From Sphingomonadaceae bacterium (GTDB lineage: Bacteria > Pseudomonadota > Alphaproteobacteria > Sphingomonadales > Sphingomonadaceae), in contig CAHJWP010000001.1 of NCBI GenBank assembly GCA_903642255.1, forward strand, positions 1 through 64,000: 64,000 nucleotides of DNA, in the 5' to 3' direction. The notes under the pieces were generated by a model, which worked only from the letters and a program-made list of their open reading frames with translations, made no database searches and was not told the DNA's origin. This document shows positions 40,871 to 61,030 of this stretch, piece after piece (position 1 is the stretch's first letter; the number at the start of each line of letters is the position of its first letter). A program made the translations under genes and the position numbers.

Positions 40871-40963
40871 CGATTATCCCTTGTGTGCGCTGGGCTGCGA
40901 CCGACTACGCTCATCGGTGATGCGCGCTTGAGCATCGCCGTCGGCGGTGGCGAACATCGCGCG

Positions 40964-43383: not shown

Positions 43384-43429
43384 GGTCATGGCGTATATTA
43401 GGAAGGGTTCGTTCGAAAGTTAAGGTCAT
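43380..43429 (+). repeat. 10-bp direct repeat at the left edge of the catabolic island
   Basis: TTAAGGTCAT occurs at 43380-43389, overlapping the copG stop, and again at 43420-43429, just before the stop of the first island gene. It could be a footprint of the insertion. No copy is visible at the right edge. Confidence 0.35.
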
Positions 43430-43434
43430 CTCAA

Positions 43435-45015: not shown

Positions 45016-45023
45016 CGTTTCAG

Positions 45024-45407: not shown

Positions 45408-46824
45408 GCTGAGTCTCTAAATTCGCCAGTTTAGCGATTGGCGCACTGGCCGTCCCCGCGCGCTCGAGTGCCGCGGCGACACCCAAGGTCAGGCCTTCGC
45501 ACCAACGCGGAGCCATGATCTGTATGCCCGCCGGCATCTCGCCCGCGGAATGGACAGGCACAACGACGACGGGCAATCCAACGAAACTGAACGGCTGCGT
45601 ATAAAGCCCTAGGCTGGCGCGAACGGATAATGTCTCCCCGCTACAAACGACTGTGGCTTCGCCCAGCAACGGTGCCGTGAACGGCGTGGCCGGCGCGAGT
45701 AGGACATCTACCGTTTCGAACAGAGCATCGACCTCGCGAGCGTACTCGCAACGGATATCATACGCCATGGAGAGGATCGATGCCGGTAGCATGGCACCGG
45801 CGATCAAGCGACTTCGCGTAGCCGGATCAAATTCTGCGGCACGAGTACGTAGCATCGGCAGGTGCCGCGTGCCTCCCTCGGTCGCCGTTATGCAGAAGGC
45901 AGCGGCACGGGCAATGTGGCTGTGCGGCAACTCGACCATATTACTGCTGCCGAGCATTGCAGCGGCTCGACTGACGGCGGCCGATATCCCGGGGCCGACA
46001 TATCGAGCGAACCAACCACCGAGCACCCCGATCCGCAATCCTCTTATGGGGAGATCAAGCAAGGGTGCAGTCGGCTCTAGCGGACGTTCGATTTGGTGTG
46101 GATCCGCTCCATCTCGGCCTTGAAGAACGTCGTAGGCAACCGCCAGATCGCGGACCGAGCGTGCAAACAGGCCAACATGATCGAGGCTGTCGATAAAGGG
46201 GTAGATGCCGGTTCTCGAAAGGCGTGCAAAGCTGGGTTTCATCCCAAACACGCCGCAAAGCGCGGCGGGCACGCGAACCGAACCGTTGGTATCAGTGCCA
46301 AGCGTAAGCGGCACTAATCCCGCAGCGACCGCTGCTGCTGAGCCGCCCGACGACCCGCCCGCAATCCGACCCGGATCGTGTGGATTGCGAGTGGCGCCAT
46401 AGTGCGCGTTCTCGGTCGAGAAGCCATAGGCAAACTCGTCCATGTTAAGCGTACCGATCAGAATGGCACCTGCCGCTTCAAGCTGCGCGACCGCGAAAGC
46501 GTCGCGTTGTGCGGGCGGTGCGTCACGCATTATGACCGAACCCGCGATCGTGGTTATGTCGGCGACGTCGAACAGGTTTTTCACCGCGAAGGGCACACCG
46601 GCCAGCGGACCGACATCCTGCCCTGCGGCGATGCGGGCGTCGATCCGCGCCGCAGCGGTGCGCGCGCGCTCGATGAGGATAGCAGTAAAGCAGTTGAGCT
46701 GCGGATCTAGCCGAGCAATGCGCTCGAGCGTCGCTTCGACGACGCCAACGGCAAACCGCGAACCCGTGCGGACTTCGGTAGCGATCGCGACCGCGTCGAG
46801 CGTCTCCAGTGGCGGCGTATTCAT
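45394..46824 (-). CDS. AtzE/HpxY-family amidohydrolase (amidase signature)
   Basis: A 476-residue amidase-signature enzyme with a complete Ser-cisSer-Lys triad: Lys82 (VPFAVKNLFD), cis-Ser158 (GGSSGGSAAA) and nucleophile Ser182 (GTDTNGSVRVPA). In Pseudomonas sp. ADP AtzE with AtzG hydrolyses 1-carboxybiuret. In Klebsiella HpxY belongs to the oxalurate cluster. A carboxylated ureide is therefore the likely kind of substrate. It overlaps the small atzG-like gene by 4 bp, consistent with the known AtzE-AtzG complex. Confidence 0.9.
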   Translation of the reverse strand: MNTPPLETLDAVAIATEVRTGSRFAVGVVEATLERIARLDPQLNCFTAILIERARTAAARIDARIAAGQDVGPLAGVPFAVKNLFDVADITTIAGSVIMRDAPPAQRDAFAVAQLEAAGAILIGTLNMDEFAYGFSTENAHYGATRNPHDPGRIAGGSSGGSAAAVAAGLVPLTLGTDTNGSVRVPAALCGVFGMKPSFARLSRTGIYPFIDSLDHVGLFARSVRDLAVAYDVLQGRDGADPHQIERPLEPTAPLLDLPIRGLRIGVLGGWFARYVGPGISAAVSRAAAMLGSSNMVELPHSHIARAAAFCITATEGGTRHLPMLRTRAAEFDPATRSRLIAGAMLPASILSMAYDIRCEYAREVDALFETVDVLLAPATPFTAPLLGEATVVCSGETLSVRASLGLYTQPFSFVGLPVVVVPVHSAGEMPAGIQIMAPRWCEGLTLGVAAALERAGTASAPIAKLANLETQHDNQ

Positions 46825-46991
46825 TTCCTGGCCGGTTCTCGAGAGTACGCGAGAACCGGCGCAACCTGATTTATGACAACCCGCATCGCGTCGCGTACTT
46901 CCGCTAGCGCCTCATCGTCGAGCTGCAAGCCGAGTATGGCGGCGGAGGTGGCGACGAAGGCTGCTACCTCGGCATCCGTTTGCGCGATCAC
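46821..46991 (-). CDS. AtzG/HpxX-like small subunit (DUF4089)
   Basis: A 56-residue helical protein from a GTG at 46991 (VIAQTDAEVAAFVATSAAIL, then LQLDDEALAEVRDAMRVVIN). DUF4089 proteins form the small subunit of AtzE-type amidases. The start is fixed by a GTGA overlap with the upstream cysteine hydrolase, and the stop overlaps the atzE ATG. The frame is open further upstream, but that DNA codes for the hydrolase in another frame. Confidence 0.82.
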   Translation of the reverse strand: MIAQTDAEVAAFVATSAAILGLQLDDEALAEVRDAMRVVINQVAPVLAYSREPARK

Positions 46992-47782
46992 ACCATCGCC
47001 CCGATGGTAACCGTCTCCTTCGACAATGCAGCGGCCACCGCGGCGCATGATGCGACGAAGCCATAGCATTGTCGAACGTTGTACAAGGTGGCAGCGACGC
47101 AATAGCCGGGCGATGTCGTTGCACAGCAATCCTCGACAAGCACGCAATCGTACCCGCGAAAACTGGCATCCTGCAGCGTATTCAACACACATTGGTCGAG
47201 GTTCACGCCCCCAAATAACAATGTTGTCACACCCAGATTGCGCAAAATGCTGTCGAGCGGCGTATCCCAGAAGCCCGACATCGCGAACTTGGCAACGTGG
47301 ATGTCGCTGCTTGCATCGATAAGTTCGTCGACGACCGCCGCCGACCAGCTTCCCTGCTCCAAGACGTGTGCGCCGTTGCCCAAAGGGTCTCCGAGACCGG
47401 GGCCAAGCCCGGCCCGATCGTAGACATGATGTGTCGAGGGGCCGAGGTTGAGCCGATCAGGACGATTACCCCAGTTGAGCCAGATGACCGGAATATTCCG
47501 CAAGCGGACGATCGGCAGCATTTGCTGTATAGGTGCAATCGCCGCCCGCGCCGGTGCTACATCGACGCCGATCGTCGCCAGCCAGCCTTCCGGATGACAA
47601 AAATCATTCTGCATGTCGATGACGACGAAGGCGGTGGTAGCAACGTCAAGCCGGATATCCTGCGGCGTGGCAGCAACTTCGACTGGCTGGGGGCGATTCG
47701 GGATACGTACAAAATCGACGGAGGTCTCATCGACCATCCAGCAATTTGTCCGCCCGCTGCCGATGGCGCGACGCGTGCTCAC
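46988..47782 (-). CDS. Isochorismatase-like cysteine hydrolase
   Basis: A 264-residue cysteine amidohydrolase of the isochorismatase fold (relatives: N-carbamoylsarcosine amidase, ureidoacrylate amidase RutB, biuret hydrolase). The triad is visible: Asp56 (VVIDMQNDF), Lys165 (HVAKFAMSGFWDT) and Cys198 (GGVNLDQCVLNTLQD). It would remove a carbamoyl group or amide from a linear ureide. GTG start at 47782 overlaps the cupin stop (GTGA). The precise substrate cannot be chosen from sequence. Confidence 0.88.
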   Translation of the reverse strand: MSTRRAIGSGRTNCWMVDETSVDFVRIPNRPQPVEVAATPQDIRLDVATTAFVVIDMQNDFCHPEGWLATIGVDVAPARAAIAPIQQMLPIVRLRNIPVIWLNWGNRPDRLNLGPSTHHVYDRAGLGPGLGDPLGNGAHVLEQGSWSAAVVDELIDASSDIHVAKFAMSGFWDTPLDSILRNLGVTTLLFGGVNLDQCVLNTLQDASFRGYDCVLVEDCCATTSPGYCVAATLYNVRQCYGFVASCAAVAAALSKETVTIGAMV

Positions 47783-48231
47783 CCTGTCGCTCCTCCACGC
47801 AAGACGAGGAGGTCCTCGTCGTCCAGCGTAACCGGTTGCCCTGCCAGGATCAGTTCCGCAAATCCTTCATTCGGGATCATGAAGGTCAACGTATATAATT
47901 TGCCGCAACCCGTGTTTTCGATGACGTGCTCGCTACCAGGGCGCAGCATCAGTGCATCCCCCTTGGCGATCGGGTAGGAGAGGCCTCCGCACCGAGCGAT
48001 CCCATCCCCTGACAAGACGTAAAAGAATTCGTGCGCATGACGATGGGAATTGGGCGGCGTTGTGCCTCCAACCGTAAAGATCTCCACCACACACACAGAG
48101 CCAATGGCATCGGACGCTGGATCGAAGAGCAGTGCGAAATAATTCGTGTCGGCAGGAGCAATTCGACGTGCTTCCACGGTAGCAACTGATCGAAAAACGA
48201 CCGGCGGCAGCGCGGTATCGACGCGAACCAT
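47779..48231 (-). CDS. Cupin-domain protein
   Basis: A 150-residue single-domain cupin. The metal-binding motif 1 is PPNSHRHAHEFFYVLSGDGI (two His and a Glu). Motif 2 is LMLRPGSEHVIENTG (His). A mononuclear metal enzyme or small-molecule-binding role is possible. Ureidoglycolate lyase and similar ureide enzymes have related folds, so a catalytic role in the same pathway is plausible but unproven. Start and stop overlap both neighbours. Confidence 0.82.
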   Translation of the reverse strand: MVRVDTALPPVVFRSVATVEARRIAPADTNYFALLFDPASDAIGSVCVVEIFTVGGTTPPNSHRHAHEFFYVLSGDGIARCGGLSYPIAKGDALMLRPGSEHVIENTGCGKLYTLTFMIPNEGFAELILAGQPVTLDDEDLLVLRGGATG

Positions 48232-49070
48232 CAGGCTTGCGGAGCGCTGCGATAACGCAGCCGGTCAAGCGGAAAACGCATTACTTCGCCGACCAAGAGG
48301 ATGAACGAGTCCACCATATGTTGAGCAAGCCGTGCACCACGCTCAGCATCAGCAGCAGTGGCGTTGCCGCACACGCCCCAGGAGTTGAGATCTTGTGCTT
48401 GCCAACCGAAGCCGATGTGGCCCTCAGGCGCAAGGAATTGGTACTCTTTCTCCATCTCCTGTCCCAGTGACATGAAGTTTTGTGTCTGGGTCATATCGAC
48501 CAAATCAGGACGGAGGTGCAGCATAAGCGACGTTTCGACTTCGCCACCGTGAATGCCGTGCCGACATTCATCGGCCGGGAACAAGCCTTCAGGTATTCCG
48601 AAGGCAAACCACGCCGCGTTGACCACCAGCATACCACATCTAATACGAAGCTCACGTGCGACGATGTCCAGTACCTGCGGCTGGCCGCCATGCGAGTTCA
48701 GCAAGATCAGCTTTTGTATCCCAGCACGCCGCACGCTCTCACCCAGCTCGACAAGAATAGCGCCCAACGTCGTGTTCGATAGGCTCAGCGTACCTGGAAA
48801 AGCTTCATGTTCATTGCTCTTGCCGACCGCTTGGATTGGAAGCGCTAAGACCGAGAGCGACGCGGGAATTGCCGCCAGCGCTCGCTCGAGCAGGAGTTCG
48901 TTGATACACGAGTCTACCCAGACCGGCAGATGCGGCCCGTGCTGCTCGATCGCTCCGATCGGAAGTATCGCCACCGTTTCTTTCGGCAGAGTCTCGAACA
49001 TTGGCGACGAAATCTCATGCCAGTGCCGCGGCGGCTTTTTATCAAGGCGCGCGTTCATCGAGCTGCTCAA
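48231..49070 (-). CDS. Creatininase-family amidohydrolase
   Basis: A 279-residue metal-dependent cyclic amidohydrolase related to creatininase, which opens the five-membered lactam of creatinine. Metal-binding stretches are ILPIGAIEQHGPHLPVWVDS (Glu, His, Asp), LLNSHGGQPQVLD and GIHGGEVETSLML (His, Glu). ATG at 49070 overlaps the Rieske gene stop (ATGA), and its stop shares a base with the cupin ATG. In this context ring opening of an oxidised hydantoin/parabanate-like or pyrimidine ring is my inference. Confidence 0.88.
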   Translation of the reverse strand: MSSSMNARLDKKPPRHWHEISSPMFETLPKETVAILPIGAIEQHGPHLPVWVDSCINELLLERALAAIPASLSVLALPIQAVGKSNEHEAFPGTLSLSNTTLGAILVELGESVRRAGIQKLILLNSHGGQPQVLDIVARELRIRCGMLVVNAAWFAFGIPEGLFPADECRHGIHGGEVETSLMLHLRPDLVDMTQTQNFMSLGQEMEKEYQFLAPEGHIGFGWQAQDLNSWGVCGNATAADAERGARLAQHMVDSFILLVGEVMRFPLDRLRYRSAPQA

Positions 49071-50119
49071 TGACTTAGGGGCATGGCATCGTCGCCCTTC
49101 GCACGATGGTTGGTCGCCTCCGGTTCGTCGTGCGCGGCAAGAAGGTCGCGCAGCATCTCACGGATCAACAAGCCCGGCCTGTCGCTGGCCATGCTCGCCT
49201 CGATCCCGCGATAATCAAGCGGGACGTCATAGTCGGTACCTTCCAGAATGTATTTGTCCTCCTCGACGACCGCGTTGTCGAAACGGATCACGTCGGCGGT
49301 CGATGTCTCGGATTCAGTATCATTTCTGAAACAGAACTGCACGATTTGCGACCTCGCATCGTCGATAGGCGTGGCTGCAGTAACGATCGAATGTACGAGG
49401 CCTGTCGGATATTTGATCCTCGTTTTACGGAGGAAAGGGATGTACCATATCGCCTGTGAACTACGCACCGTCGTATCATCGCTGATACCTAGAACCTCTT
49501 TTTGAAGATCTCGATTTACGACAGGGACTTCGGACTCCATGACAAAGCCGTCGGCAGTCTTCGTAATCGTGAAGGCTGCAGGTTTGGGGCTACCGGCATC
49601 GCCGAAGGTGTCGCGATGAACGAAGGCGATGTGCGCCATGTCAAAGCTGTTTTCCATCAGCCTCAATCCGGCACACTGCCAAACGTCATAGAACTGATCG
49701 ATCTTTCGATAGCTGGGCGATGCGGCCTCTTCGAATTCTGGAATAGCAAACAGCGGATCGCCCAATGCGACCCATACGTACCCGTAGCGCTCCGCTGCAT
49801 TGAACGCTGGCGTTCGCATCGCCGATCGATGATCGCGCCCTTCCCCGACTTGCGGCACCCTCACGACCGCACCGCTCCTGTCATACTGCCAGCCATGATA
49901 GCCGCAGACGATCCGGCCCGCTTCGCAATAGCCGCGTGACAGCTTTGCCGTCCGATGGCAGCAACGGTCAGCGATTGCGGCGGGGGTGCCATCGGCCGTC
50001 ATCCAGAGTACGATATCGACACCTAGCAGTCGAAACGGCTTTGGCCCATCGGTCAGGTGGGCAACCGGCATGACGGGATACCAGAAGCGCCGAAGGAGAG
50101 ACTGTTTGGTGACTAGCAC
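49067..50119 (-). CDS. Rieske non-haem iron oxygenase, catalytic subunit
   Basis: A 350-residue oxygenase of the VanA/PaO-like group (ring hydroxylation or O/N-demethylation). Rieske cluster ligands are Cys53-x-His55 (DRCCHRTAKLSRG) and Cys72-x2-His75 (CGYHGWQYD). The mononuclear iron site and bridging Asp are in LMENSFDMAHIAFVHRDTFG. No ferredoxin reductase is encoded nearby, so electrons must come from a host reductase. It is the first gene of the eight-gene leftward operon, divergent from the TonB receptor. Confidence 0.92.
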   Translation of the reverse strand: MLVTKQSLLRRFWYPVMPVAHLTDGPKPFRLLGVDIVLWMTADGTPAAIADRCCHRTAKLSRGYCEAGRIVCGYHGWQYDRSGAVVRVPQVGEGRDHRSAMRTPAFNAAERYGYVWVALGDPLFAIPEFEEAASPSYRKIDQFYDVWQCAGLRLMENSFDMAHIAFVHRDTFGDAGSPKPAAFTITKTADGFVMESEVPVVNRDLQKEVLGISDDTTVRSSQAIWYIPFLRKTRIKYPTGLVHSIVTAATPIDDARSQIVQFCFRNDTESETSTADVIRFDNAVVEEDKYILEGTDYDVPLDYRGIEASMASDRPGLLIREMLRDLLAAHDEPEATNHRAKGDDAMPLSH

Positions 50120-50386
50120 ATTTACGTTCCATCAGCGCAGCGCACGTCGCAAACAGCATGATAAAGCTTCCGATTGAAGCATCAAAAAGTGGGCTGGGCG
50201 CTGCCAAAATAAGACGCCGCCCTACCATGCGGTGCAAGTGTTTATTGATCGCTTAATAGCAGCGCAGCGGTCACATTAATATGCTTTAGGAGCTCGCGGC
50301 CGGATCCTAGCCTCTTTGTGATAGTAGCGGCACCGCAAGAGTGACTGCCTCGGGGAGAGTGGCTGAACGACAGCAAGGGGCGCGTC
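50120..50386. promoter_or_regulatory. Divergent promoter region between the Rieske operon and the TonB receptor
   Basis: A 267-bp AT-richer gap that must contain both outward promoters of the two main transcripts of the island. AATAGCAGCG, CACATTAATATG and a GGGGAG ahead of the receptor gene are visible. I see no clear copy of the T-N11-A dyad found next to the LysR gene. Confidence 0.45.
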
Positions 50387-52729
50387 ATGACGAAACTGTC
50401 TAATCGAAAAGTCCGTTTCGCACTACTCACAGCGACATCGCTATCGGCAGCTCTGTCGGCTACACCGATAAGCGCCCAGCTTGTGCAGACCGAGCCGCAG
50501 GGCGCGCCTTCCCGGGCGTCCGGTTTAGAGTCCGCCCAGCTAGAGGACATTGTCGTCGTCGCCGACAAGCGGGAGGTGAACCTGCAGAAAGCGCCCCTCG
50601 CCATCACCGCGCTGAGTGCAGATACGCTCAAGGTTGCTAATATTTTGAGCTCCGTTGATCTGAACGGTTATGTTCCAGGTCTGACGGTTGCGCGAACCGA
50701 GGGTGTCAACAGAGTCGTCAGCATACGTGGTATCGGCAATGAGGCAAACCAGAATGACGGCGCCCAGCCCGGAGTCGCTTACCATATCGACGGCGTCTAT
50801 ATCGCCAGCCCAGTAGCGTTGAATGCCGATTTTCTGGACGTCGAACGGGTCGATGTGCTGCGTGGTCCCCAAGGCACGGTCTTTGGCCAAAACTCAACAG
50901 GGGGCACGATCAACGTGATCTCCCGCCAACCCAAGCTCGACGAAACATCGGGCTACGTCGACCTCAGCGGTGGCAACTACAACTATTTTCGTGGCGAAGC
51001 CGCCTTGAACGTGCCGATCAGTTCGACGATTGCCGTACGCGGGGCTATTCTGGGCATTCGCCACGACGGCTTTGCCACGGCCACGGCAGTACCCGGTTAT
51101 CCAAACGGCTATGGTCTCGACAATGAGAGCACCGTGGAAGGCCGGGTATTCGCGTTGTGGCAGCCAACCAGCAACTTCAAGCTGATTTTAGGGTTTGAGG
51201 ACGACAATCTTGATGAGAACGATCGGGCCCAGAAGAGCATCTTTGATCCTAATCCCGATCCGCGTCAGCTGACCCAGGACTACCCGGGAAGGTTTTATGT
51301 CGCCAGCCAGATTTACAGCGCGCGGGCGGAATGGGATCTGGGTGGCGTCACCCTCAAGGATACAACGAGTTTCCAGCACTTGATAAACCATCATTCCTTC
51401 GACCGTGATCGGTTGACCGCAGCGCTCTCGAATCCGCACGACCTCAATCCATTCGCTGACCGGAACTTTCATGCTTATACTGAAGAGTTGAACCTCTCTT
51501 CGAATGGAGACGGCCGGCTCCAATGGACGGTCGGCGGGTTCTATCTGAAACAGCGCAGCAAATTGTGCGTTCTCGAGTTTTCGCAGAATCCGGGTGCGAC
51601 ACTGCCGACCGAGTGCCAGGTGCTCCAGCCTGGTATCTCGATCTACGACATTGCCTTCCAAACTAATTCGACACAAAGCCGGGAGTCTTGGTCGGGTTAC
51701 GGCCAGGCAACGTATAAATTCAGCGACGCACTCCGTCTGACTGCAGGTGCCCGTTACACGCAAGACACCGTCTCAGCGCTTATCAGCAATTACTTCAATG
51801 CCTACGGTCCGCCGACTAGTGCCGCAATTCGTAGCCGGGCATTAACCGGAAAAGTCTCACTCGAAGGCGATCTGTCTCAGCAGAATCTACTCTACGCGAC
51901 AGTATCCCGTGGCTTCAAGCCGGGGGGCAGCAACCTGTCGCAAGACCCGATTGTGGTGCCGGTATTGTTCAAGCCCGAGCGGGTAACGGCCTATGAGCTG
52001 GGATCTAAGAATCGGTTCGCCGACGATGCCATCCAGCTCAACCTCGCTGCCTATTACTACGATTACAAAAACTTACAGCTTCAGCTCGATGACCCAGTGC
52101 CTTTCCAAGGCGGTGTTGGTAACGTCGACAAGTCCGAAATTTATGGCTTCGAAGCCGAGACATCGATCATCCTGCCGGCCGATTTTCGCCTGAACGGCGT
52201 CGTCGGTCTCGAGGGCAGCAAAATCCTATCAAACCAACTGCTGCTAGACGGCTATGAAGGAAACTTGGCTCAGCTTGCGCTGCAAGCCCAAGGCTTCGGT
52301 GCTTTTGCTCCACAGACGATCGCAGCTCGCGCTGCTGCCTCAAAGAGCGCTTATGGGAATGCTGTTCCGAAACTGCCTTCCGTGACAGGCAGCGCAACGC
52401 TCTACAAAACCGTTGCTTTCGATTCCGGTTCTAAGCTGCTGGCAAACTTTGGCCTTGTCTACCGCGGGTCATATGAAGCGCGCGTCTTCAACGAGCCGAT
52501 CGATCGCGTGCCCGACTATCTATTGCTCAATACAGGCATTCGTTTTGTCCCGAACCACGGCGCCTGGGAGGTAGGCATAGTCGCCACTAACCTGACCAAT
52601 AAAGCCGGCATCAATTCGCGCTTCATCGACGCATTCTCCATAGCGTCGGACGCGAACGGGCGTGGTGTGGTGACCCAGGAATATGTTCCGCCTCGCCAGG
52701 TAATCGCGACAGTACATTACAGCTTCTAA
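50387..52729 (+). CDS. TonB-dependent outer-membrane receptor
   Basis: A 780-residue receptor of the sphingomonad type, for active uptake across the outer membrane. A signal peptide (about residues 1-29) is followed by a TonB box/plug start LEDIVVVADKREVNLQKAPL. The plug motifs IRGIGNEANQNDGAQPGVAYHIDGV and VLRGPQGTVFGQNSTGGTIN and a full beta-barrel follow, ending in the classical VIATVHYSF with terminal Phe. No STN domain is present, so it does not signal through a sigma factor. It probably imports the island's substrate. Confidence 0.93.
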   Translation: MTKLSNRKVRFALLTATSLSAALSATPISAQLVQTEPQGAPSRASGLESAQLEDIVVVADKREVNLQKAPLAITALSADTLKVANILSSVDLNGYVPGLTVARTEGVNRVVSIRGIGNEANQNDGAQPGVAYHIDGVYIASPVALNADFLDVERVDVLRGPQGTVFGQNSTGGTINVISRQPKLDETSGYVDLSGGNYNYFRGEAALNVPISSTIAVRGAILGIRHDGFATATAVPGYPNGYGLDNESTVEGRVFALWQPTSNFKLILGFEDDNLDENDRAQKSIFDPNPDPRQLTQDYPGRFYVASQIYSARAEWDLGGVTLKDTTSFQHLINHHSFDRDRLTAALSNPHDLNPFADRNFHAYTEELNLSSNGDGRLQWTVGGFYLKQRSKLCVLEFSQNPGATLPTECQVLQPGISIYDIAFQTNSTQSRESWSGYGQATYKFSDALRLTAGARYTQDTVSALISNYFNAYGPPTSAAIRSRALTGKVSLEGDLSQQNLLYATVSRGFKPGGSNLSQDPIVVPVLFKPERVTAYELGSKNRFADDAIQLNLAAYYYDYKNLQLQLDDPVPFQGGVGNVDKSEIYGFEAETSIILPADFRLNGVVGLEGSKILSNQLLLDGYEGNLAQLALQAQGFGAFAPQTIAARAAASKSAYGNAVPKLPSVTGSATLYKTVAFDSGSKLLANFGLVYRGSYEARVFNEPIDRVPDYLLLNTGIRFVPNHGAWEVGIVATNLTNKAGINSRFIDAFSIASDANGRGVVTQEYVPPRQVIATVHYSF

Positions 52730-52771
52730 GGAAGCGCGGCGAGAGCGTTCCGTTCGAATGCCGGGCCGAGT

Positions 52772-53710
52772 TCAAGGATAGTCGATGATCGCACTCAGGA
52801 TCATGTTAATCACTTCCGAGTTCTTGAGCGCCGTACAGAGCTTGACGGGGCGGCGGCCCGCAAAGGGCGACGGACGGCTGCGCTGCATCTCGCCCGGCCT
52901 TCGATCGAAGACGACCATGCCGGTGGTAAGCGACCCGGCGAGTTCGACCGCGGCGCGATAATCCGTGTAGGTCGCAAGGGACGGTTGCAGGTAGGGCAGA
53001 ACCGCGCACGCGTCGTGCTGGGGCGCAATATCGAGTCCCGTGACCGCCAACTGACGCGCGCGATAGAAGCGCATGACCTTCCCGATGAAACTCGCCACCC
53101 GGTGCCCGCTGGTTTCGAGGCAGTCGATCTGGCTTTCTGTAAAGCCCGTGCGGGAGGTTATGTCATAGCCGACCATGTACATCGGAATGGCCGACGCCAA
53201 AACGATGTCGAGCGCTTCAGGATCGCTGCACGCGTTAAATTCGGCCATCGGCGTCGTGTTGCCTGGTCCGGCTGAGCCGCCCATGACCGAGAGCGAGGCG
53301 ATCCCCGACTCGATATGGGAATAGGCTGACAAGGCCCTGGCCAGATTGGTGAGCGGGCCTGTGGCAATAATTGAAACCCCGCCGGGAAGCGACGCCTGTT
53401 CGGCGATGAAGTCGATCGCGCTCGTGATTTCCGGCTGGCGCGACGATGCTGGTAATTGCGCACCATCGAGGCCCGATCGACCATGAACATTGGCATCGAT
53501 TCTCGATCGTTGCAGCGGTGTTCCAGAGCCTCGGAAAACTGGAATGTCCAAGCCAGCCATGTCAAGGAAACCTAAGGCGTTGCGCGTAGTCAGCTCGACC
53601 GGGGCGTTGCCGTAGACCGTGGTGACGCCCGATATCGTCAAGGCTCTCGCCGCCAGAAGAATGGCGACAGCATCGTCATGACCAGGGTCGCAATCGATGA
53701 TGTAGCGCAT
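52772..53710 (-). CDS. Nucleoside hydrolase (inosine-uridine preferring family)
   Basis: A 312-residue N-glycosidase that releases free ribose from nucleosides. The Ca2+-binding signature DCDPGHDDA is at the N-terminus. IIATGPLTNLARALSAYS and VMGGSAGPGNTTPMAEFNACSDPEA match the family, and APQHDACAVLPYL carries the C-terminal His-Asp. ATG at 53710 lies one base past the ribokinase stop, so the two genes are coupled. No signal peptide is seen, so it is cytoplasmic. Base preference cannot be read from the sequence. Confidence 0.92.
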   Translation of the reverse strand: MRYIIDCDPGHDDAVAILLAARALTISGVTTVYGNAPVELTTRNALGFLDMAGLDIPVFRGSGTPLQRSRIDANVHGRSGLDGAQLPASSRQPEITSAIDFIAEQASLPGGVSIIATGPLTNLARALSAYSHIESGIASLSVMGGSAGPGNTTPMAEFNACSDPEALDIVLASAIPMYMVGYDITSRTGFTESQIDCLETSGHRVASFIGKVMRFYRARQLAVTGLDIAPQHDACAVLPYLQPSLATYTDYRAAVELAGSLTTGMVVFDRRPGEMQRSRPSPFAGRRPVKLCTALKNSEVINMILSAIIDYP

Positions 53711-53711
53711 A

Positions 53712-54653
53712 TCAGGCGTCCTTACGCACCGCAGGATGGGTGTGCGCCGCCGCATCTTTCGATCGGTCAATCTCGCCGCGAAACGGCATAGCGTCACACG
53801 CGCCAATCCGGGTCACAGCAACAGCCGCGGCCGCCGATGCAAATCGCGCCGCAGCGAGGGGACTGGCGCCCTCTATAAGCGCAACGGCAAACGCACCATT
53901 GAACGAGTCCCCCGCCGCCGTTGTGTCGATCGCCTGGACCCGAATGGCGGGTATGAAAACGGGCTCTGCATTCTTGGCGAGCAGCAACGATCCGCGCGCG
54001 CCCAGTTTCATGACGACGTTATCGACACCCATGGCCTGGATTTGGAAAGCTGATGCGAGCGGGTCGATTGCGCCGTGCGGCTGATTAAGTAGGAACCGCG
54101 CCTCGGTCTCGTTCGGCGTTAGCCATCCGACCTGGGCGAGTAATTCGCGCGGTAACAACGTGGCGGGTGCGGGGTCGAGGACGAACGTCGCGCCGGCCGC
54201 GCGAGCCAGCTCTGCTGCACGTAAGACCGTCGTCGTAGGGATTTCAAGCTGACACAGGACGATGCGCTTGCCGGCGAACTGCTTCGCGTCGAGCGCTGAA
54301 GGATGCAGCGTTGCATTGGCACCAGGCACTACGATGATCATATTGTCGCCACCCACCGCCGTCAAAACCACGGCGACCCCGGACGGCGTGGAGCTCACAG
54401 CGACATCCTCGACCCCGATTCCCTCAGCTACTAGCGCAGCCAAAAGGGCCTCGCCGAGATCGTCGTTTCCAATCCGCGCAACCAAGTCGACCGACCCGCC
54501 AGCGCGGGCCGCGGCGACCGCCTGGTTGAGGCCTTTGCCCCCTAAATATCGTTCGAATTTGTCTGCATTGATTGTCTCACCTGCTCCGGGCAGCCGCGGC
54601 ACGACCAAAGTGTAATCAACATTTGCACTGCCGATGACGAGAATGCTGGCCAT
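53712..54653 (-). CDS. rbsK: Ribokinase (PfkB family)
   Basis: A 313-residue sugar kinase, ribose to ribose-5-phosphate. Signature 1 is RYLGGKGLNQAVAAARAGG. The substrate Asn/Asp pair is in VIGSANVDYTLVV, and signature 2 is DTTAAGDSFNGAFAVAL with catalytic Asp. ATG at 54653 is preferred to an in-frame start further upstream. Co-transcription with the nucleoside hydrolase shows that ribose freed from a nucleoside is the likely substrate. Confidence 0.92.
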   Translation of the reverse strand: MASILVIGSANVDYTLVVPRLPGAGETINADKFERYLGGKGLNQAVAAARAGGSVDLVARIGNDDLGEALLAALVAEGIGVEDVAVSSTPSGVAVVLTAVGGDNMIIVVPGANATLHPSALDAKQFAGKRIVLCQLEIPTTTVLRAAELARAAGATFVLDPAPATLLPRELLAQVGWLTPNETEARFLLNQPHGAIDPLASAFQIQAMGVDNVVMKLGARGSLLLAKNAEPVFIPAIRVQAIDTTAAGDSFNGAFAVALIEGASPLAAARFASAAAAVAVTRIGACDAMPFRGEIDRSKDAAAHTHPAVRKDA

Positions 54654-54780
54654 GCGCCCTGCTTCACTTCCCCAATGCAGCAATTACCCATCCTCGGCAG
54701 GCGCTCGATTTATGGGCGAGGCTGCCGATTAGCTTACGGCCGACGGTTTCGCACGGCATAACATTCGCCACAAATACGGC

Positions 54781-56067
54781 TCAGTGTGCTGACCGGGCCG
54801 CTAGCCCGCTTGCTATGAAGGGTTTGGTGCCGCCCGATGGATCGATCTCCTCAGAAGCGACCAGGACAGGCCGGTACACCGGTAGAAGGAAAATCAGGAT
54901 GGCGCTGCAGAGCAGGGCGACGGCGATCAACACCAGCGCGAGAGCATAATTGCCTCGCATATCAAACGTCAGGCCCATGAGTATCGGCGTGAAGCCCGAC
55001 ACCAAAATGGAGACGCCGAAGATCGAGCCATAGATAGCGCTGAAGGCTCTGACGCCAAAATAGCGCTGTATCACGCAGGGTAACAGCCCGTACTCGGTGC
55101 CGCTGCCGATTCCGACCAGCGCCGCGCCACCGATCAGCCACGCCGGACCGGTGGCTGACCCGATAAGCGCAAGCCCCGCGATAGCCGTAATGAGGAATGC
55201 GCCAGCGAATCGGGGCGAGCGGGTCCGGTCAAGCATCGCTCCAATGACGATCTGCCAGCTGGCATTACACAGGGCCGTCGTCGCGAACACCGACGTTGCG
55301 AAAGTCAAGGCGATGCCGCGGTCGGTCAGCATCGGGATCATATGCGTCAGCATTGCACTGAGCGAACCCGCGCCAAGCGCAACGCTGAACATGAGCAGCC
55401 AGAATTCAGGCCGCCGCCGAGCTTCTCGTACAGTGAGACCAGTGGTCGTCGCGTCGGACAGGATCAAACCGGCCGCCGCACGAGGAGGGTCTCTCAATAG
55501 TATCATCGCGGGGCAACCGACCGCAAAGGTGAAGGCCCCCAAGCCTGCATAGGCTGCACGCCAGCCGTAATTAGCCGTGATCGCCTTGACCAGGAACGGC
55601 AGGACGGCGATTCCTATATTGATCCCGAAGGCTCCGGTGAGCGCGAACAACAAGCCCTGGTGACGCGTAAACCATAGCGAGATGGGCTTCATGAGCAGCA
55701 CGCAACTGGAGAGGGTTCCGGCGAGGCCGACAAGCGCGTAGAGTCCATACACGAGGTAGCGATTGCCGTTTGAGAACGCCAATCCGGCCACGCACAGGGC
55801 GAATGATGCATTGCCGATCAAGGCCACAGGACGGACGCCATAACGATCCGCGAGCCGTCCGGCGACGGGGTATCCAACCACCCCCACAATCGCCATTACG
55901 AGCAACACCACCGAAAAATCCGTTCTCGACCAACCAAGCGCATGAGTAACTGGAACGAGAAAGATACCGAAAGTACCATTGATCACTGGCGTAACGCTCA
56001 CCAGGTTACCAAATGCACACCCAAGGATGACACCGGCCCCGCCCCAAGCCTGGTTTCTGGTTGCCAC
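54781..56067 (-). CDS. Major facilitator superfamily transporter
   Basis: A 428-residue inner-membrane carrier with 12 predicted TM segments. The loop 2-3 signature is GYPVAGRLADRYGVRPVALIG. The monocarboxylate-transporter-like opening (GVILGCAFGNLVSVTPVING) and GFTPILMGLTFDMRG near the end suggest the MCT/OFA-like branch. It is divergent from the deaminase gene and upstream of the ribokinase pair. It is likely to carry the imported compound or an intermediate across the inner membrane. Confidence 0.88.
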   Translation of the reverse strand: MATRNQAWGGAGVILGCAFGNLVSVTPVINGTFGIFLVPVTHALGWSRTDFSVVLLVMAIVGVVGYPVAGRLADRYGVRPVALIGNASFALCVAGLAFSNGNRYLVYGLYALVGLAGTLSSCVLLMKPISLWFTRHQGLLFALTGAFGINIGIAVLPFLVKAITANYGWRAAYAGLGAFTFAVGCPAMILLRDPPRAAAGLILSDATTTGLTVREARRRPEFWLLMFSVALGAGSLSAMLTHMIPMLTDRGIALTFATSVFATTALCNASWQIVIGAMLDRTRSPRFAGAFLITAIAGLALIGSATGPAWLIGGAALVGIGSGTEYGLLPCVIQRYFGVRAFSAIYGSIFGVSILVSGFTPILMGLTFDMRGNYALALVLIAVALLCSAILIFLLPVYRPVLVASEEIDPSGGTKPFIASGLAARSAH

Positions 56068-56238
56068 TGCGACGCTGCTCCGACCGTCAAGCTAGCGAGC
56101 GTCCCATACGAAACCAAGCTTTGACAGCAGCATAATCGCATCGGATCGATCACTTTTTGTGTCTTGGCTCGGTATCACGACGGCTTAGAGATATTCACGG
56201 TCGATTGCGGGCACCGTGTCTGAACATAGGTAGGAAGC
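56068..56238. promoter_or_regulatory. Divergent promoter region between the MFS and deaminase genes
   Basis: A 171-bp gap that must drive both genes. An AT-rich patch (GCATAATCGC, then CACTTTTTG at 56151-56159) is visible. The same 9-mer appears in reverse at 50183-50191 in the other divergent island promoter, which could be a shared site or chance. GGTAGGAAGC precedes the deaminase ATG. Confidence 0.4.
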
Positions 56239-57555
56239 ATGACGATCCGCGACCAATTAGAATCCGGTGCGTTCGTCCTGAGGAACTGCTCCGTTCCGGC
56301 AATCTTCCTCGCTGACACCACCGTGCAACAGGTGTGCGAAATCGCATGCTGCGATATCGGCGTAGCGGCCGGAAAGATCGTCGCGGTCTTGCCGCCGAAC
56401 ACCGGTTGGGGGATGACGGCGGACTGCGCCGGCATCGACGTCGCGCGTGCGATGATATGGCCTTGCTTCACCGACGTGCACTGCCACCTCGACAAAGGGC
56501 AGACCGTCGACCGGGCGCCTCCTAACGACGGAACCTTCGTTTCTGCGCTCGACGCTGTCGCATCGGACAGGCAGCATTGGACTAGCGCCGACACCCTAAA
56601 ACGCATGGACTTCGGGCTGCGCTGCGCGTTTGCACACGGCTGCTCGGCCGTGCGCACCCATATAGACTCCGATCATGCGTCGGCACTGGCAAGCTGGGAT
56701 GCATTCGAAGAGTTGCGTGATCGCTGGACGGGCCGCGTCGACCTTCAGGCGGTCTCGCTCGTCCAGATCGGCGCGCTTGCCGATCCAACGTTGTCCTGCG
56801 CGGTCGCGGACCGCGTCGCGCATTTCGGTGGCATCTTGGGCGCGTCCACCCGACAGGTGCCTGAACTCGACGACACCATCGACAGCCTATTCTCACTTGC
56901 CGAAGAGCGGGGCCTCGACCTCGATTTCCATGTCGATGAAACGGGCGATCCCGCCGCGACAGCTCTCGGAGTCATTGCGCGAACCGCGCTACGAAGGCGA
57001 TTTGCGGGACAAGTTGTGGTCGGCCACTGCTGCAGTATCGCCGTTCAGGACTATGATTTGGTCGATCGGACCTTGGACATAGTCGCCCAGGCGGGCCTTG
57101 CGGTCGTGACCTTACCAGTGCTGAATCTTCAGCTTCAAGACCGTAGGGAAGGTCGTACTCCCCGCTGGCGCGGGATCACGCTGGTCCATGAAATGCGAGC
57201 TCGGGGCATCCCCATTGCGGTCGGCGGCGATAATGTGCGTGACCCGCTTCACCCGTACGGCGATCACGATATGTTGCAAGCATACCGTGATGCGACGCTT
57301 ATCGGCCATCTCGACGCGCCTATCGGAAACTGGCCGCTCAGCGTGACGGCTGTACCTCGGGGTCTGATGGGCCTTCCGGCGCGCCAGATTGCCCCCGGCC
57401 ATCCGGCCGACTTCATCGTATTCTCAGCGCGGACCTACAGCGAACTACTGGCGCGCCCCCAATCAGATCGGATCGTTGTCCGCGACGGACGGCCGTGCTC
57501 GGCACGTGTTCCCAGCTTTACTGAATTGGACGACCTGTTTAAGCGAGATCTTTGA
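56239..57555 (+). CDS. Cytosine deaminase/AtzC-type amidohydrolase
   Basis: A 438-residue metal-dependent hydrolase of the CodA branch of the amidohydrolase superfamily, whose members deaminate cytosine, isoguanine or N-alkyl-ammelides (AtzC). Metal ligands are FTDVHCHLDKGQTVD, the His-Val-Asp-Glu block LDFHVDETGDPAAT, VVGHCCSIAV, and the final Asp in AVGGDNVRDPLHPYGDHDML. The length is close to CodA (about 427). It would strip an amino group from the base. The substrate is unassigned. Confidence 0.9.
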   Translation: MTIRDQLESGAFVLRNCSVPAIFLADTTVQQVCEIACCDIGVAAGKIVAVLPPNTGWGMTADCAGIDVARAMIWPCFTDVHCHLDKGQTVDRAPPNDGTFVSALDAVASDRQHWTSADTLKRMDFGLRCAFAHGCSAVRTHIDSDHASALASWDAFEELRDRWTGRVDLQAVSLVQIGALADPTLSCAVADRVAHFGGILGASTRQVPELDDTIDSLFSLAEERGLDLDFHVDETGDPAATALGVIARTALRRRFAGQVVVGHCCSIAVQDYDLVDRTLDIVAQAGLAVVTLPVLNLQLQDRREGRTPRWRGITLVHEMRARGIPIAVGGDNVRDPLHPYGDHDMLQAYRDATLIGHLDAPIGNWPLSVTAVPRGLMGLPARQIAPGHPADFIVFSARTYSELLARPQSDRIVVRDGRPCSARVPSFTELDDLFKRDL

Positions 57556-57569
57556 CAGCCGGGCCGCCG

Positions 57570-58589
57570 TTACGAGCCATAAGTGCGAAGCACTTTCTCG
57601 CGAATATGATCCCGCGCTAAGATCGGCGCATATCGAGCTGACCTCGCGGCGGAGGTACAACCTGGCAGACACTTGATTTCGGCATCTTCGCGGGGACCGG
57701 TGAAGAAGACGATCGACAGCCGACGGCTCGACCCGCCGGCATCGGCGGGCGGATTGACTACGCGATGTACGTTGGAAACCCAGCGGTCATTCGTCCATCG
57801 CTGCAGCAGATCACCTGTGTTGATCACGAGCGTGCCTGGTACACCGGGGACGTCGATCCATTTCCCGTTGGCCATCAAAACCTGCAATCCGCCGGGAGCG
57901 TTATCCTGCAAAAGGATAGTAAAGCCGGCAAAATCGGTGTGGGGGGCGTTGCGCAGTTGCCCAGGTTCTGGCGGTACGACCTGTTCTGGATAATAGGCGA
58001 GGCGCAATTTATGCTGCATGGGGGTATAAAGCTCTTCGAAGAAATCCTCGGAAAGCCCGAGCGCTGCAGCACTAAGCCGCATCAGCCGCTGACCTAGCGA
58101 ATAGGCAGCATCGGCATAAGCACAGATCGACTCCACAAGCTCTTCTTGCATCCCTTGCTGTGTTGTTAAGCCCGGCAAGGTGGTGCCAGCATTACCTGCA
58201 AGATCCGAAAAGCTGAGCGACTCTACAATGTCAGGAACGCCTGAACCGCCAGCAGCCCGGCCGACATTCTCTTGCATTGGGGCAATGTAGCCCATCGTGC
58301 CGCGATACTTCGGATCCATTATCGTATGCTTAAGTTTGACGTCAATGGGTTGTTCAAAAAACTGACATGCTTGACGGTGTAGATTAGTCGCCAATGCTTC
58401 AGATATTCCGTGACCATGAACGGTAACGAAACCGATGGCATCGAGCGCGTCGCGCCACTCCGACACCACTTTCGCCTTTTGATCAGAGTCGTTTGCATCG
58501 AACCCTGAGATGTCGATCAACGGTATAGCCAACGTTCGTTCTCTTATTTCAAGAAGATGAGGATCAGCCCATTCCGACGACGATAGCAT
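57570..58589 (-). CDS. 2-oxoglutarate/Fe(II) oxygenase, isopenicillin N synthase-like
   Basis: A 339-residue dioxygenase. The N-terminal DIOX_N domain is LAIPLIDISGFDANDSDQKA and GFVTVHGHGISEALATNLHR. The 2OG-FeII core has iron ligands His-x-Asp in NAPHTDFAGFTILLQD and a distal His in VSNVHRVVNPP, with the 2OG-binding Arg-x-Ser in SRRLSIVFFTG. It could hydroxylate or N-demethylate the base, as fungal XanA-type and thymine hydroxylases of this superfamily do. It is convergent with the deaminase gene (14-bp gap) and divergent from the LysR gene. Confidence 0.88.
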   Translation of the reverse strand: MLSSSEWADPHLLEIRERTLAIPLIDISGFDANDSDQKAKVVSEWRDALDAIGFVTVHGHGISEALATNLHRQACQFFEQPIDVKLKHTIMDPKYRGTMGYIAPMQENVGRAAGGSGVPDIVESLSFSDLAGNAGTTLPGLTTQQGMQEELVESICAYADAAYSLGQRLMRLSAAALGLSEDFFEELYTPMQHKLRLAYYPEQVVPPEPGQLRNAPHTDFAGFTILLQDNAPGGLQVLMANGKWIDVPGVPGTLVINTGDLLQRWTNDRWVSNVHRVVNPPADAGGSSRRLSIVFFTGPREDAEIKCLPGCTSAARSARYAPILARDHIREKVLRTYGS

Positions 58590-58600
58590 TGGTGGGATGC

Positions 58601-58618
58601 CATTCTAGCACGAGAATG
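58601..58618. promoter_or_regulatory. LysR-type operator dyad between oxygenase and regulator genes
   Basis: CATTCT and AGAATG flank AGCACG in the 51-bp gap between the divergent 2OG-oxygenase and LysR genes. The dyad satisfies T-N11-A (T604 to A616 in window numbering 58604-58616), the consensus of LysR-type recognition sites. Autoregulation and control of the oxygenase are the natural reading. Confidence 0.6.
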
Positions 58619-58640
58619 TGTCTCGACGAAGCTCATTTCC

Positions 58641-59615
58641 ATGCTACATGCCAATGCCGCCAAGCTGGTTCGGGAGGCCTCTTTGCGTTTGCTGCATTCA
58701 CAGCTCTTGAGATACGTCGACGAGGTCGCCCGGGCTGGATCGATACGCAAGGCATCGGTCAAGTTAAACATTGCCTCCTCTTCGATCAATCGTCAGATAT
58801 TGGCGCTAGAAGCTGAGTTGGGCAGCCCGATTTTCCACCGGCTTCATCGTCGGCTTCGGCTGACGCCTGTGGGCGAGATCTTGGTAGATCATGTGCGGCG
58901 AACGTTGAAGGATCTCGGCCGCGCCGTCGGGCAGATCGAGGACTTGAAAGGGATTCGTCGCGGCACCGTGACAGTCGCCCTTGTTGGTGGCTTGGCTTCA
59001 TCGCTAATCATTCGCGTGTGCTCGGATTTCCGCGAGCGCTATCCGATGATCAAATTAGTCTTCCGCCGATATGACGGGGACAAGATTGCGGCGGCTGTCA
59101 CCTCCGGGGAATGTGATCTGGGCTTGTCATTCCTTTTACCTGACGATCCCAACCTGGCAGTTGTCGCCGCAATCGATTGTTACGTCGGTGCAATTGTCCC
59201 CAAGGATCATCCGCTTGCTAAGCGTGCCTCAGTCAGGATTAGCGATTGCGTCGGTTTTCCGATGGTTTTACCGGATGAAACCATGATGGTTCGCGGCGTT
59301 ATTAATACCGGTTTTGAGCGGCTCAGTATGGCATTGTATCCCGAGATGGAAAGCAATTCTATTGAAATGATTAGAGGATTTGTCGCTTCGGGACAGGGAA
59401 TTTCATTTTTAAATCAGATCAACGTAAATGATGAGCGTGCTCAAGGGTCGATAGTGTTCATTCCAATTATTGATAAGCTCCGGCCGCTTAATTTACGGAT
59501 CGTTCGCAGAGCAAAGGATCAGCAGATCATACCTAATTTGCTGGCAACCGCTATAAGAGCGGCGGTAGAGGAGCTTGAACCGGGCAGCAGCTTACTAATA
59601 AGTAAGTTAGTTTAG
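58641..59615 (+). CDS. LysR-type transcriptional regulator
   Basis: A 324-residue regulator. The winged HTH is HSQLLRYVDEVARAGSIRKASVKLNIASSSINRQILALEAELG (residues about 20-62). The substrate-binding domain resembles regulators of aromatic and N-heterocycle catabolism (GTVTVALVGGLASSLI, then VTSGECDLGLSFLL and VASGQGISFLNQ). The last third of the gene is visibly AT-richer than the rest of the window (GTTATTAATACCG, TTTTTAAATC), a sign of foreign origin. It is the only regulator in the island, so it probably controls the catabolic genes. Confidence 0.93.
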   Translation: MLHANAAKLVREASLRLLHSQLLRYVDEVARAGSIRKASVKLNIASSSINRQILALEAELGSPIFHRLHRRLRLTPVGEILVDHVRRTLKDLGRAVGQIEDLKGIRRGTVTVALVGGLASSLIIRVCSDFRERYPMIKLVFRRYDGDKIAAAVTSGECDLGLSFLLPDDPNLAVVAAIDCYVGAIVPKDHPLAKRASVRISDCVGFPMVLPDETMMVRGVINTGFERLSMALYPEMESNSIEMIRGFVASGQGISFLNQINVNDERAQGSIVFIPIIDKLRPLNLRIVRRAKDQQIIPNLLATAIRAAVEELEPGSSLLISKLV

Positions 59616-60055
59616 GTAAAAATTCATCATTACAAAGTATTTGTGCGAATACTGTGTGAAACTCCGTTGCTACACTACGGCCTGCCATAAATCAACATAT
59701 GACGGCTGAGTCTAATCATCTGCGAGAACCACATTTATAGCGGATTGCTGAACATTCTAATTTGTCAACGACGTGGTAGGCTGAGGTTTATAACTCGTTC
59801 ATGAACCTTGATGGATGATGCAGCTGACCAGCGTGCTCGAGGAGGTAGCACGTTTACAAGGCCTGCCGCCACAGGACCGCCTGCAGCGCCCGTTACTGAC
59901 AGCAGTCACGAGACTGCGGAAGAGAAAAGGGGCAGGTCTTACGAATCTAAAGACCGAAGTCCGCCTGCTTTCATTCGCCATTCTACGCCTGCCGAAATGC
60001 GATGTTGATTCGGCACTGATAGGCGCTTCTTTGCTCATCCCCATCGTCCTCGGGG
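59616..60055. other. AT-rich gap at the right edge of the island, upstream of trbB
   Basis: About 440 bp. The first 200 bp are strongly AT-rich. From about 59,800 the base composition returns to that of the backbone. A frame opens at ATG 59815 (MMQLTSVLEEVARLQGLPPQ) and runs in another frame into trbB, but I see no family resemblance and no separate stop before trbB, so I do not call a gene. The island/backbone junction must lie here. Confidence 0.4.
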
Positions 60056-60058
60056 ATG
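60036..60058 (+). promoter_or_regulatory. Hairpin that sequesters the trbB start
   Basis: CATCCCC (60036-60042) pairs perfectly with GGGGATG (60052-60058) across a 9-base loop. The 3' arm contains both the GGGG ribosome-binding stretch and the ATG of trbB. Such a helix could hold trbB silent unless opened, which matters because the natural upstream coupling to copG has been lost here. Confidence 0.45.
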
Positions 60059-61030
60059 CAAATGACCGTCCGGCCGCTCCATTCAGAGACCTTCGCCCGC
60101 GGTGCCCGCATGCTGCGCACCGCGCTGGGTCCGACGATCGCCGGCCTGCTCGCAGACTCGTCCATCGTCGAAGTTATGCTCAACCCCGATGGTTGCCTTT
60201 GGGTCGACCGCCTCGGCGTCGGGCTTGCCGATACGGGCGAGCACTTCTCGCCGGCCGACGGCGAGCGGATCGTCCGCCTCGTTGCCCATCACGTCGGCGC
60301 CGAGGTGCACGCCGGATCGCCACGCGTCTCGGCCGAGCTGCCCGAGACCGGCGAGCGCTTCGAGGGCCTGCTTCCGCCCGTTGTCGCCGCCCCCTGCTTC
60401 GCCATCCGCAAGCCCGCCGTCGCGGTGTTTACCCTCGACGACTACGCCGCCACCTCGGTGATGACGACGGCCCAAGCATGCCTGCTCCGCGATGCTGTCG
60501 CCCAGCGGCGCAACATTCTCGTCGCTGGCGGCACCTCGACCGGCAAGACGACGCTGACCAACGCGCTGCTAGCCGAGGTCGCCAAAAGCCAAGACCGCAT
60601 CATCCTCATCGAAGACACGCGCGAGCTACAGTGCCTGACCCCCAACCTCGTCGCACTGCGCACCAAGGACGGCGTCGCGACGATGGTGGAGCTGGTCCGC
60701 TCGGCGCTCCGCCTGCGTCCTGACCGCATTCCGATTGGCGAGGTCCGGGGGGCCGAGGCGCTCGACCTGATCAAGGCGTGGGGCACCGGCCACCCCGGCG
60801 GCATCGCCACCATCCACGCCGGCTCGGCGATCGGCGCGCTGCGGCGGCTCGAGCAGTTGGCCCAGGAGGCGGTGGTCACGGTGCCGCGCGCGCTGATCGC
60901 CGAGACCATCGACCTGATCGCCGTGCTTGCCGGCCACGGCAGCGAGCGCCGCCTCGTCGAGCTCGCCCGCGTCACCGGGCTCACCCCGTCCGGTGACTAC
61001 GCCCTTCACCCCGCAGGAGACCCGTCATGA
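60056..61030 (+). CDS. trbB: Conjugal transfer ATPase TrbB
   Basis: A 324-residue VirB11-type secretion ATPase of the mating-pair apparatus. It has [20 protein letters not shown] at the N-terminus and Walker [21 protein letters not shown] near residue 158. The Asp box is [20 protein letters not shown], Walker [21 protein letters not shown], and the His box [15 protein letters not shown]. It starts at ATG 60056; a second ATG lies two codons later. It overlaps trbC by 4 bp. Confidence 0.95.

Follow-up and report, generated by a model that had tools for sequence, protein, structure and literature searches.

The closest described counterparts of the gene cluster analysed here come from the catabolism of purines and cyanuric acid. 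HpxW converts oxamate to oxalate and ammonium (PMC5270733) and HpxY has been named oxalurate amidohydrolase (PMC12625717). In Enterobacteriaceae, the most common setting of the atzG-atzE-atzH trio is with a gamma-glutamyltranspeptidase (GGT) gene, near the gene for allantoate amidohydrolase (PMC6219798). The xanthine riboswitch binds xanthine or urate and controls genes for pcbC-like 2-oxoglutarate (2OG) oxygenases, NMT1 proteins and Rieske oxygenases; the substrates of these oxygenases were left open in that study (PMC7373994). The present work concerns a catabolic cluster at positions 43435-59615 of the first 64,000 nucleotides (the window, i.e. the whole stretch of DNA analysed) of contig CAHJWP010000001.1 from a Sphingomonadaceae bacterium (assembly GCA_903642255.1), where it appears to be the cargo of a conjugative element.

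We read this cargo as a mobile, LysR-linked island for catabolism of the purine ring, a variant of HPX-type purine catabolism in which a nucleoside hydrolase (NH) and a ribokinase (RK) form an optional entry module, and put the probability of this reading at roughly 0.6. The ring is probably a purine because the Rieske oxygenase of the island is nearest to NdmA, its relatives occur with purine genes and a xanthine riboswitch, and the closest of them retain genes for the deaminase, the 2OG oxygenase and the LysR protein. Gene families were assigned by Pfam, NCBIfam and PDB comparison of the window proteins. The source is a metagenome-assembled genome (MAG) of 2.5 Mb in 280 contigs that is 71% complete, which limits the weight of any genome-wide negative; such negatives come from family searches only.

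The Rieske operon and its predicted oxalurate/oxamate branch

The operon runs leftwards from position 50119, on the reverse strand throughout, and encodes a Rieske oxygenase (49067-50119), a creatininase-family cyclic amidohydrolase (48231-49070; PF02633, E = 3.1e-69), a small cupin (47779-48231; Cupin_2, 3.5e-12), its partner, a RutB/BiuH-like isochorismatase-fold amidohydrolase (46988-47737), and then HpxX-like, HpxY/AtzE, HpxZ/AtzH and HpxW/GGT proteins. The last four thus occur together in one run, the HpxX match being weak. The HpxZ/AtzH-like protein (45024-45407) scores 162.8 bits against the NCBIfam HpxZ equivalog (cut-off 135) and matches the Pfam AtzH-like family at 2.7e-52, and the HpxY/AtzE-type amidase (45394-46824) reaches 658 and 643 bits with NCBIfam AtzE family models, above their cut-offs. 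The HpxW-type oxamate amidohydrolase (43435-45015), of the GGT fold (PF01019, 1.2e-118), matches chains A and B of PDB entry 5hft, which we take to be Klebsiella HpxW, at 1.9e-86 and 3.5e-70, with E. coli GGT behind at 3e-53; a Thr residue aligns with the start of chain B (340), where autocleavage requires Thr. The HpxX/AtzG-like small subunit (46821-46991, 56 aa) is assigned by position and length, its sole Pfam match (AtzG-like, E = 0.0076) falling below the cut-off. Its GTG start overlaps the stop codon of the isochorismatase gene and the open reading frame (ORF) overlaps its neighbours on both sides. An ORF of this kind is easy for gene callers to overlook.

Because the HpxZ and AtzE/HpxY equivalogs score above their cut-offs and are joined by an HpxW-like GGT and an HpxX-like ORF in a known cluster layout, we assign the operon tail to the oxalurate/oxamate branch of purine catabolism. 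Judging from these families, it is predicted to take oxalurate via oxamate to oxalate, as at the known end of purine catabolism.

The Rieske oxygenase and its relatives

The Rieske protein (PF00355, 1.3e-20; VanA_C, 1.5e-19) has NdmA (2.6e-34) and NdmB (9.8e-23) as the nearest solved structures, and the Fe-S and iron ligands are kept in the family alignment. The column of NdmA Asn282, a xanthine-contacting residue in the NdmA structures, holds Asp in 59 and Glu in two of the 61 family rows; the island protein has Asp.

Relatives were collected by scanning genome contigs and 398 proteobacterial genomes. The comparison set consisted of 44 other loci (given below by our L numbers) in which the Rieske identity was 40% or higher, with flanks of up to 10 kb, some of them cut by contig ends; a partner was counted when it scored as best match within these flanks, and the names of purine genes were checked by NCBIfam with one representative each. 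Near the Rieske gene we found NMT1-type binding proteins and ABC components (20 loci each), a FAD_binding_4 oxidase (16), an 8-oxoguanine-deaminase-like enzyme (14), creatininase (12), 2OG oxygenase (9), CodA-like deaminase (7), and isochorismatase, cupin and 2-oxo-4-hydroxy-4-carboxy-5-ureidoimidazoline (OHCU) decarboxylase (6 each). Less frequent neighbours were 5-hydroxyisourate (HIU) hydrolase and LysR (5 each), HpxO and allantoate amidohydrolase (4 each), HpxY, PuuE and xanthine permease (3 each), HpxZ (2) and a TonB-dependent receptor (1). NH, RK and major facilitator superfamily (MFS) genes were found in none of these flanks.

Two cyanobacterial loci (L037 and L040) have genes for xanthine permease, HpxO, OHCU decarboxylase and 8-oxoguanine deaminase after the Rieske gene, and the cyanobacterial Rieske enzyme could make 8-oxopurines. 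HIU hydrolase also belongs to the set of genes found beside cyanobacterial Rieske genes (L037:10001-20765, L040:9956-20252 and L025:7631-11017). The xanthine (NMT1) riboswitch RF03054 lies upstream of Rieske operons in seven of the 24 loci scanned (L013, L015, L038, L043, L044, L046 and L047), which are candidate operons for molybdenum-free purine oxidation. Many of these operons also encode an 8-oxoguanine-deaminase-like enzyme and a Rieske reductase.

In the Rieske tree (62 proteins), the island protein groups with those of L016 and L017 and with five roseomonad sequences (support 99/96); the riboswitch-bearing loci sit in another part of the tree. Its closest relatives, L016 and L017, combine the Rieske gene with genes for a 2OG oxygenase (32-53% identical to that of the island), a CodA-like deaminase (46-47%) and a LysR regulator (47-49%), and lack NH and RK. 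Elsewhere, TauD-type 2OG dioxygenases, possibly analogous to the fungal xanthine dioxygenase, replace the isopenicillin N synthase (IPNS)-like 2OG gene beside the Rieske gene (L035:6682-9325, three in a row, and L048:7889-8758).

Uptake, deaminase, 2OG oxygenase and LysR genes

The partners retained in L016 and L017 are all found to the right of the operon. The CodA/AtzC-like deaminase (56239-57555, forward strand) scores 550 bits with NF005759/PRK07583 (cut-off 403), and its best PDB match is E. coli cytosine deaminase (4.8e-29). The CodA context of Aminobacter was also compared and showed no shared pathway. The 2OG/Fe(II) oxygenase (57570-58589, reverse strand) is thymine 7-hydroxylase-like, with thymine dioxygenase as the nearest solved structure (4.9e-37); its 53% identical relative in L017 lies near Rieske, CodA and LysR genes. 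The LysR gene (58641-59615, forward strand) is divergent from the 2OG gene, and its relatives in L016, L017, L048 and L011 are likewise arranged divergently to Rieske, TonB or cupin genes. Two transport genes complete this part of the cargo: one for a TonB-dependent receptor (50387-52729, forward strand; Pfam TonB barrel, 2.7e-34), a homologue of which adjoins the Rieske relative in L048, and one for an MFS carrier of the L-lactate or oxalate-formate type (54781-56067, reverse strand; best matches below the equivalog cut-offs), which is unlike known nucleoside carriers.

The initial annotation, made from the sequence alone, had listed the receptor, carrier, NH, RK, deaminase and 2OG oxygenase; all six are present, with family matches far beyond chance. 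It had them flanking the ring-degrading operon. They all lie on one side of it, with transfer genes beyond its other end. The LysR gene and the HpxX-like ORF were missing from its gene list.

The nucleoside hydrolase-ribokinase pair

The NH (52772-53710, reverse strand; IU_nuc_hydro, PF01156, 4.2e-81) is nearest to RihA, and the RK (53712-54653, reverse strand) scores 300.5 bits with TIGR02152, just above the cut-off of 299.65. The start of NH (53710) and the stop of RK (53712) are 1 bp apart, as had been noted. NH looks intact, since it retains the DxDxxxDD motif and every column that is invariant among NH, RihA, RihC and one relative. Comparison with RihA and RihC does not separate purine from pyrimidine specificity.

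The initial annotation had argued that such a pair makes sense only if a ribonucleoside is cleaved and its ribose recovered, and had let this define the substrate of the island. The first part stands as the predicted function of the pair, an add-on at this locus that would cleave a ribonucleoside and save the ribose. The second part is not supported: no NH or RK accompanies the 44 other Rieske genes, while creatininase, 2OG oxygenase, CodA, isochorismatase and cupin recur there. NH-family genes are present in 18 of the 35 genomes that were searched for them as holders of a Rieske relative, never in the Rieske flanks. Adjacent RK-NH pairs are also present in unrelated surroundings (L140 and L141), and no Rieske-island genes were seen in the wider neighbourhoods of the closest NH relatives. 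An NH gene beside a 2OG gene (L092/L134) involved matches of 32-35% only and was judged generic. Since the pair is absent near the other Rieske loci and generic elsewhere, it is best read as a locus-specific entry step and not as proof of a ribosylated substrate; it is an optional module outside the conserved pathway, and the substrate should not be deduced from it.

The pair might even be an unrelated passenger, perhaps together with the MFS gene, lacking any functional link to a cargo that is otherwise compatible with purine catabolism. None of the other Rieske loci sampled has NH-RK, and the pair forms a separate transcription unit. A search for LysR sites, comparing the NH-RK/MFS and Rieske promoters, also gave no clear shared site; the only match was the short TTGATGCTT, which the Rieske/TonB gap shares with the promoters of L016/L017, and many unrelated sites ranked equal or higher. 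Nevertheless, NH-RK lies between the TonB gene and the MFS, CodA and 2OG genes rather than at the edge, and resembles its neighbours in base composition (cargo G+C 0.52-0.62), unlike the transfer backbone (0.63-0.70). We consider a passenger a serious possibility, rated below an entry module.

A still less probable explanation is that the island is dedicated to a single modified, oxidized or N-alkylated ribonucleoside, or a nucleoside antibiotic, with NH and RK as obligatory first steps. The pair is intact, adjacent and within the cargo, NdmA-like Rieske enzymes can demethylate N-methyl purines, and relatives of the hydrolytic core lie beside PnrA/BMP-type ABC transporters, a family that includes purine-nucleoside receptors. 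The last observation lends mild support to nucleoside or purine uptake, so that purine nucleosides are plausible inputs. A dedicated nucleoside is opposed by the comparison of Rieske loci, by the generic RK-NH pairs elsewhere and by the type of the MFS carrier, and the site search gave it no support. Ordinary or oxidized purines are a better fit to the island than an exotic, drug-like nucleoside, which is not needed to explain it.

The proposed purine pathway

The reactions of the proposed purine pathway and their order are predictions from the observed gene content, gene order, family membership and conservation of context. The substrate would cross the outer membrane via the TonB receptor. 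If it arrived as a nucleoside, NH would free the base and ribose, and RK would recover the latter as ribose-5-phosphate. The CodA-like enzyme would deaminate an amino-purine or a ring derived from it, and the 2OG and Rieske oxygenases would hydroxylate the ring, taking the role of molybdenum xanthine dehydrogenase and possibly also that of urate oxidase. A remaining five-membered ring could then be opened by the creatininase-family enzyme; the cupin, the isochorismatase-fold hydrolase and HpxX-HpxY-HpxZ would strip ureido and amide nitrogen via oxalurate and oxamate, and HpxW would free the last ammonia, leaving oxalate.

Several observations weigh against this pathway. Urate hydroxylase (HpxO), HIU hydrolase, OHCU decarboxylase and allantoinase are all missing from the cargo genes, so that the ring-opening steps would have to differ from the known ones; the cargo has no Rieske reductase gene either. 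There was no Rfam match in window positions 42000-61000 up to E = 1, so RF03054 is absent there, and no riboswitch was found in the Rieske clade of the island; the xanthine link is therefore one of family, not of this locus. Finally, CodA-type enzymes and the nearest structure of the 2OG oxygenase would fit a pyrimidine as well. Degradation of a pyrimidine, or another dioxo-pyrimidine or hydantoin, with CodA deaminating a cytosine-like base and the 2OG oxygenase acting like thymine 7-hydroxylase, is nonetheless improbable: the deaminase falls in the cytosine deaminase equivalog, NH is nearest to the pyrimidine-specific RihA and the isochorismatase to RutB, but such resemblances do not separate the two ring types, because the xanthine ring has the same dioxo-pyrimidine edge, and both the HpxXYZW tail and the purine genes and xanthine riboswitches of the Rieske relatives speak for a purine.

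The absence of standard purine genes had been taken as a sign of an unusual nucleoside. The absence itself is borne out for the window, where neither XdhAB nor urate oxidase was found among the proteins (the latter was sought in the window only). The conclusion from it is not, as the Rieske and 2OG families are linked to ordinary xanthine and urate metabolism, a purine route that the initial annotation left out of account. The rest of the MAG encodes four molybdenum-hydroxylase domains, none of which reaches the XdhB cut-off, and no OHCU decarboxylase was found in it (HpxO and HIU hydrolase were sought in the cargo only); at 71% completeness, this background lends weak support to a molybdenum-free route. 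The earlier view is thus partly supported: catabolism of an N-heterocycle, possibly a purine base, by two oxygenases and ureide-type downstream enzymes agrees with our results.

Taken with its relatives, the proposed purine pathway points to widespread molybdenum-free purine oxidation by Rieske and 2OG oxygenases, and this Rieske family offers concrete enzymes for the substrate question left open in the riboswitch study (PMC7373994).

The creatininase-cupin-isochorismatase core

The small hydrolytic core of the operon recurs in Alpha-, Beta- and Gammaproteobacteria, at times without an oxygenase and beside PnrA-type transporters. The creatininase gene accompanies the Rieske gene as counted above, relatives of the isochorismatase that are 55-68% identical occur in purine-type loci, and cupin and isochorismatase homologues adjoin in L010, L011, L035, L062, L149, L155 and L156. 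Among 397 sampled genomes, six carry a Rieske homologue, four an isochorismatase homologue and three both (p ~8e-6, uncorrected for ancestry). A Pantoea plasmid combines genes for creatininase, LysR, a BMP/ABC transporter, cupin, isochorismatase and an 8-oxoguanine-deaminase-like amidohydrolase, without an oxygenase; Roseomonas mucosa (L156) has isochorismatase, cupin, creatininase, amidase, HpxZ and LysR together, and Rhizobium has GGT, BMP/ABC, isochorismatase and amidase. The BMP proteins of L149 and L150 are PnrA-like.

Four clusters (L155, L149, L156 and L159) are of the creatininase-cupin-isochorismatase or isochorismatase-amidase-GGT type and contain no oxygenase; PnrA/BMP-type transporters adjoin three of them, the R. 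mucosa transporter being of another ABC type. They possibly serve the uptake and hydrolysis of ready-oxidized purine products. A 59% identical isochorismatase homologue on a Streptomyces plasmid (L157:11010-11726) lies in a biosynthesis-like setting with ATP-grasp and methyltransferase genes and was set aside as having no shared pathway.

Our search of one collection of papers found no account of a creatininase-cupin-isochorismatase purine cluster, and the core appears to be uncharacterized. The reaction of urate with singlet oxygen yields parabanic acid and, on hydrolysis of this product, oxaluric acid (PMC5703782); by this chemistry, a creatininase-like enzyme that opened a hydantoin or parabanate ring would lead into the HpxXY step. 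Very tentatively, the core and HpxXYZW might form an undescribed, allantoin-independent branch for over-oxidized purines, taking a hydantoin/parabanate-type ring (from the Rieske and 2OG oxygenases or from guanine or urate damage) through oxalurate to oxalate, to which NH-RK of this element would add direct use of oxidized nucleosides.

The conjugative setting

The cargo lies inside transfer genes. On the left are a relaxase-like gene (39146-40870) and a TraG/VirD4-like gene (40883-42934), both recognized by eye from the sequence without a profile scan, and a small gene (42934-43383), the last before the cargo; on the right is a gene for a T2SSE/TrbB-type ATPase (60056-61030), and DNA at 60.1-60.4 kb matches Paracoccus trbB. 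The cargo is bounded by TraG/CopG-like genes at one end and trbB at the other. Given these transfer genes, the trbB match and the lower G+C content, it is best read as carried by a conjugative element, and a purine-type oxygenase route would then travel as conjugative cargo. No close plasmid copies of the island were found, the matches being to the trb backbone and short stretches only.

Comparison with known systems

The Klebsiella HPX pathway (hpxDE ... hpxWXYZ) shares with the island HpxX, HpxY, HpxZ and HpxW in one run, Rieske-type ring oxidation instead of xanthine dehydrogenase (predicted for the island), and putative LysR regulation. However, the cargo lacks HpxO/HpxT/HpxQ, allantoinase and allantoate amidohydrolase, and adds creatininase, cupin, isochorismatase, 2OG oxygenase, CodA-like deaminase, NH and RK; in place of HpxD and HpxE it has an NdmA-like Rieske protein of a purine-linked family with no adjoining reductase. 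The xanthine-riboswitch oxygenase operons (PMC7373994) share the IPNS-like 2OG and Rieske oxygenase families, together with deaminases, whereas the island has TonB, MFS and LysR genes and no riboswitch or NMT1 substrate-binding protein.

The methylxanthine N-demethylases NdmA and NdmB, the nearest solved Rieske structures, are alike in sequence only: the island protein is distant from them, replaces Asn282 by Asp and has no NdmC/D/E partners in the cargo. The AtzDGEHF cyanuric acid operon (PMC6219798) shares the AtzG-AtzE-AtzH trio, whereas the island lacks AtzD and AtzF and ends in GGT/HpxW, as do the common Enterobacteriaceae clusters. Generic ribonucleoside hydrolase-ribokinase pairs have the same adjacent, codirectional RK and NH genes; the pair described here differs from them in lying within an oxygenase catabolic island.

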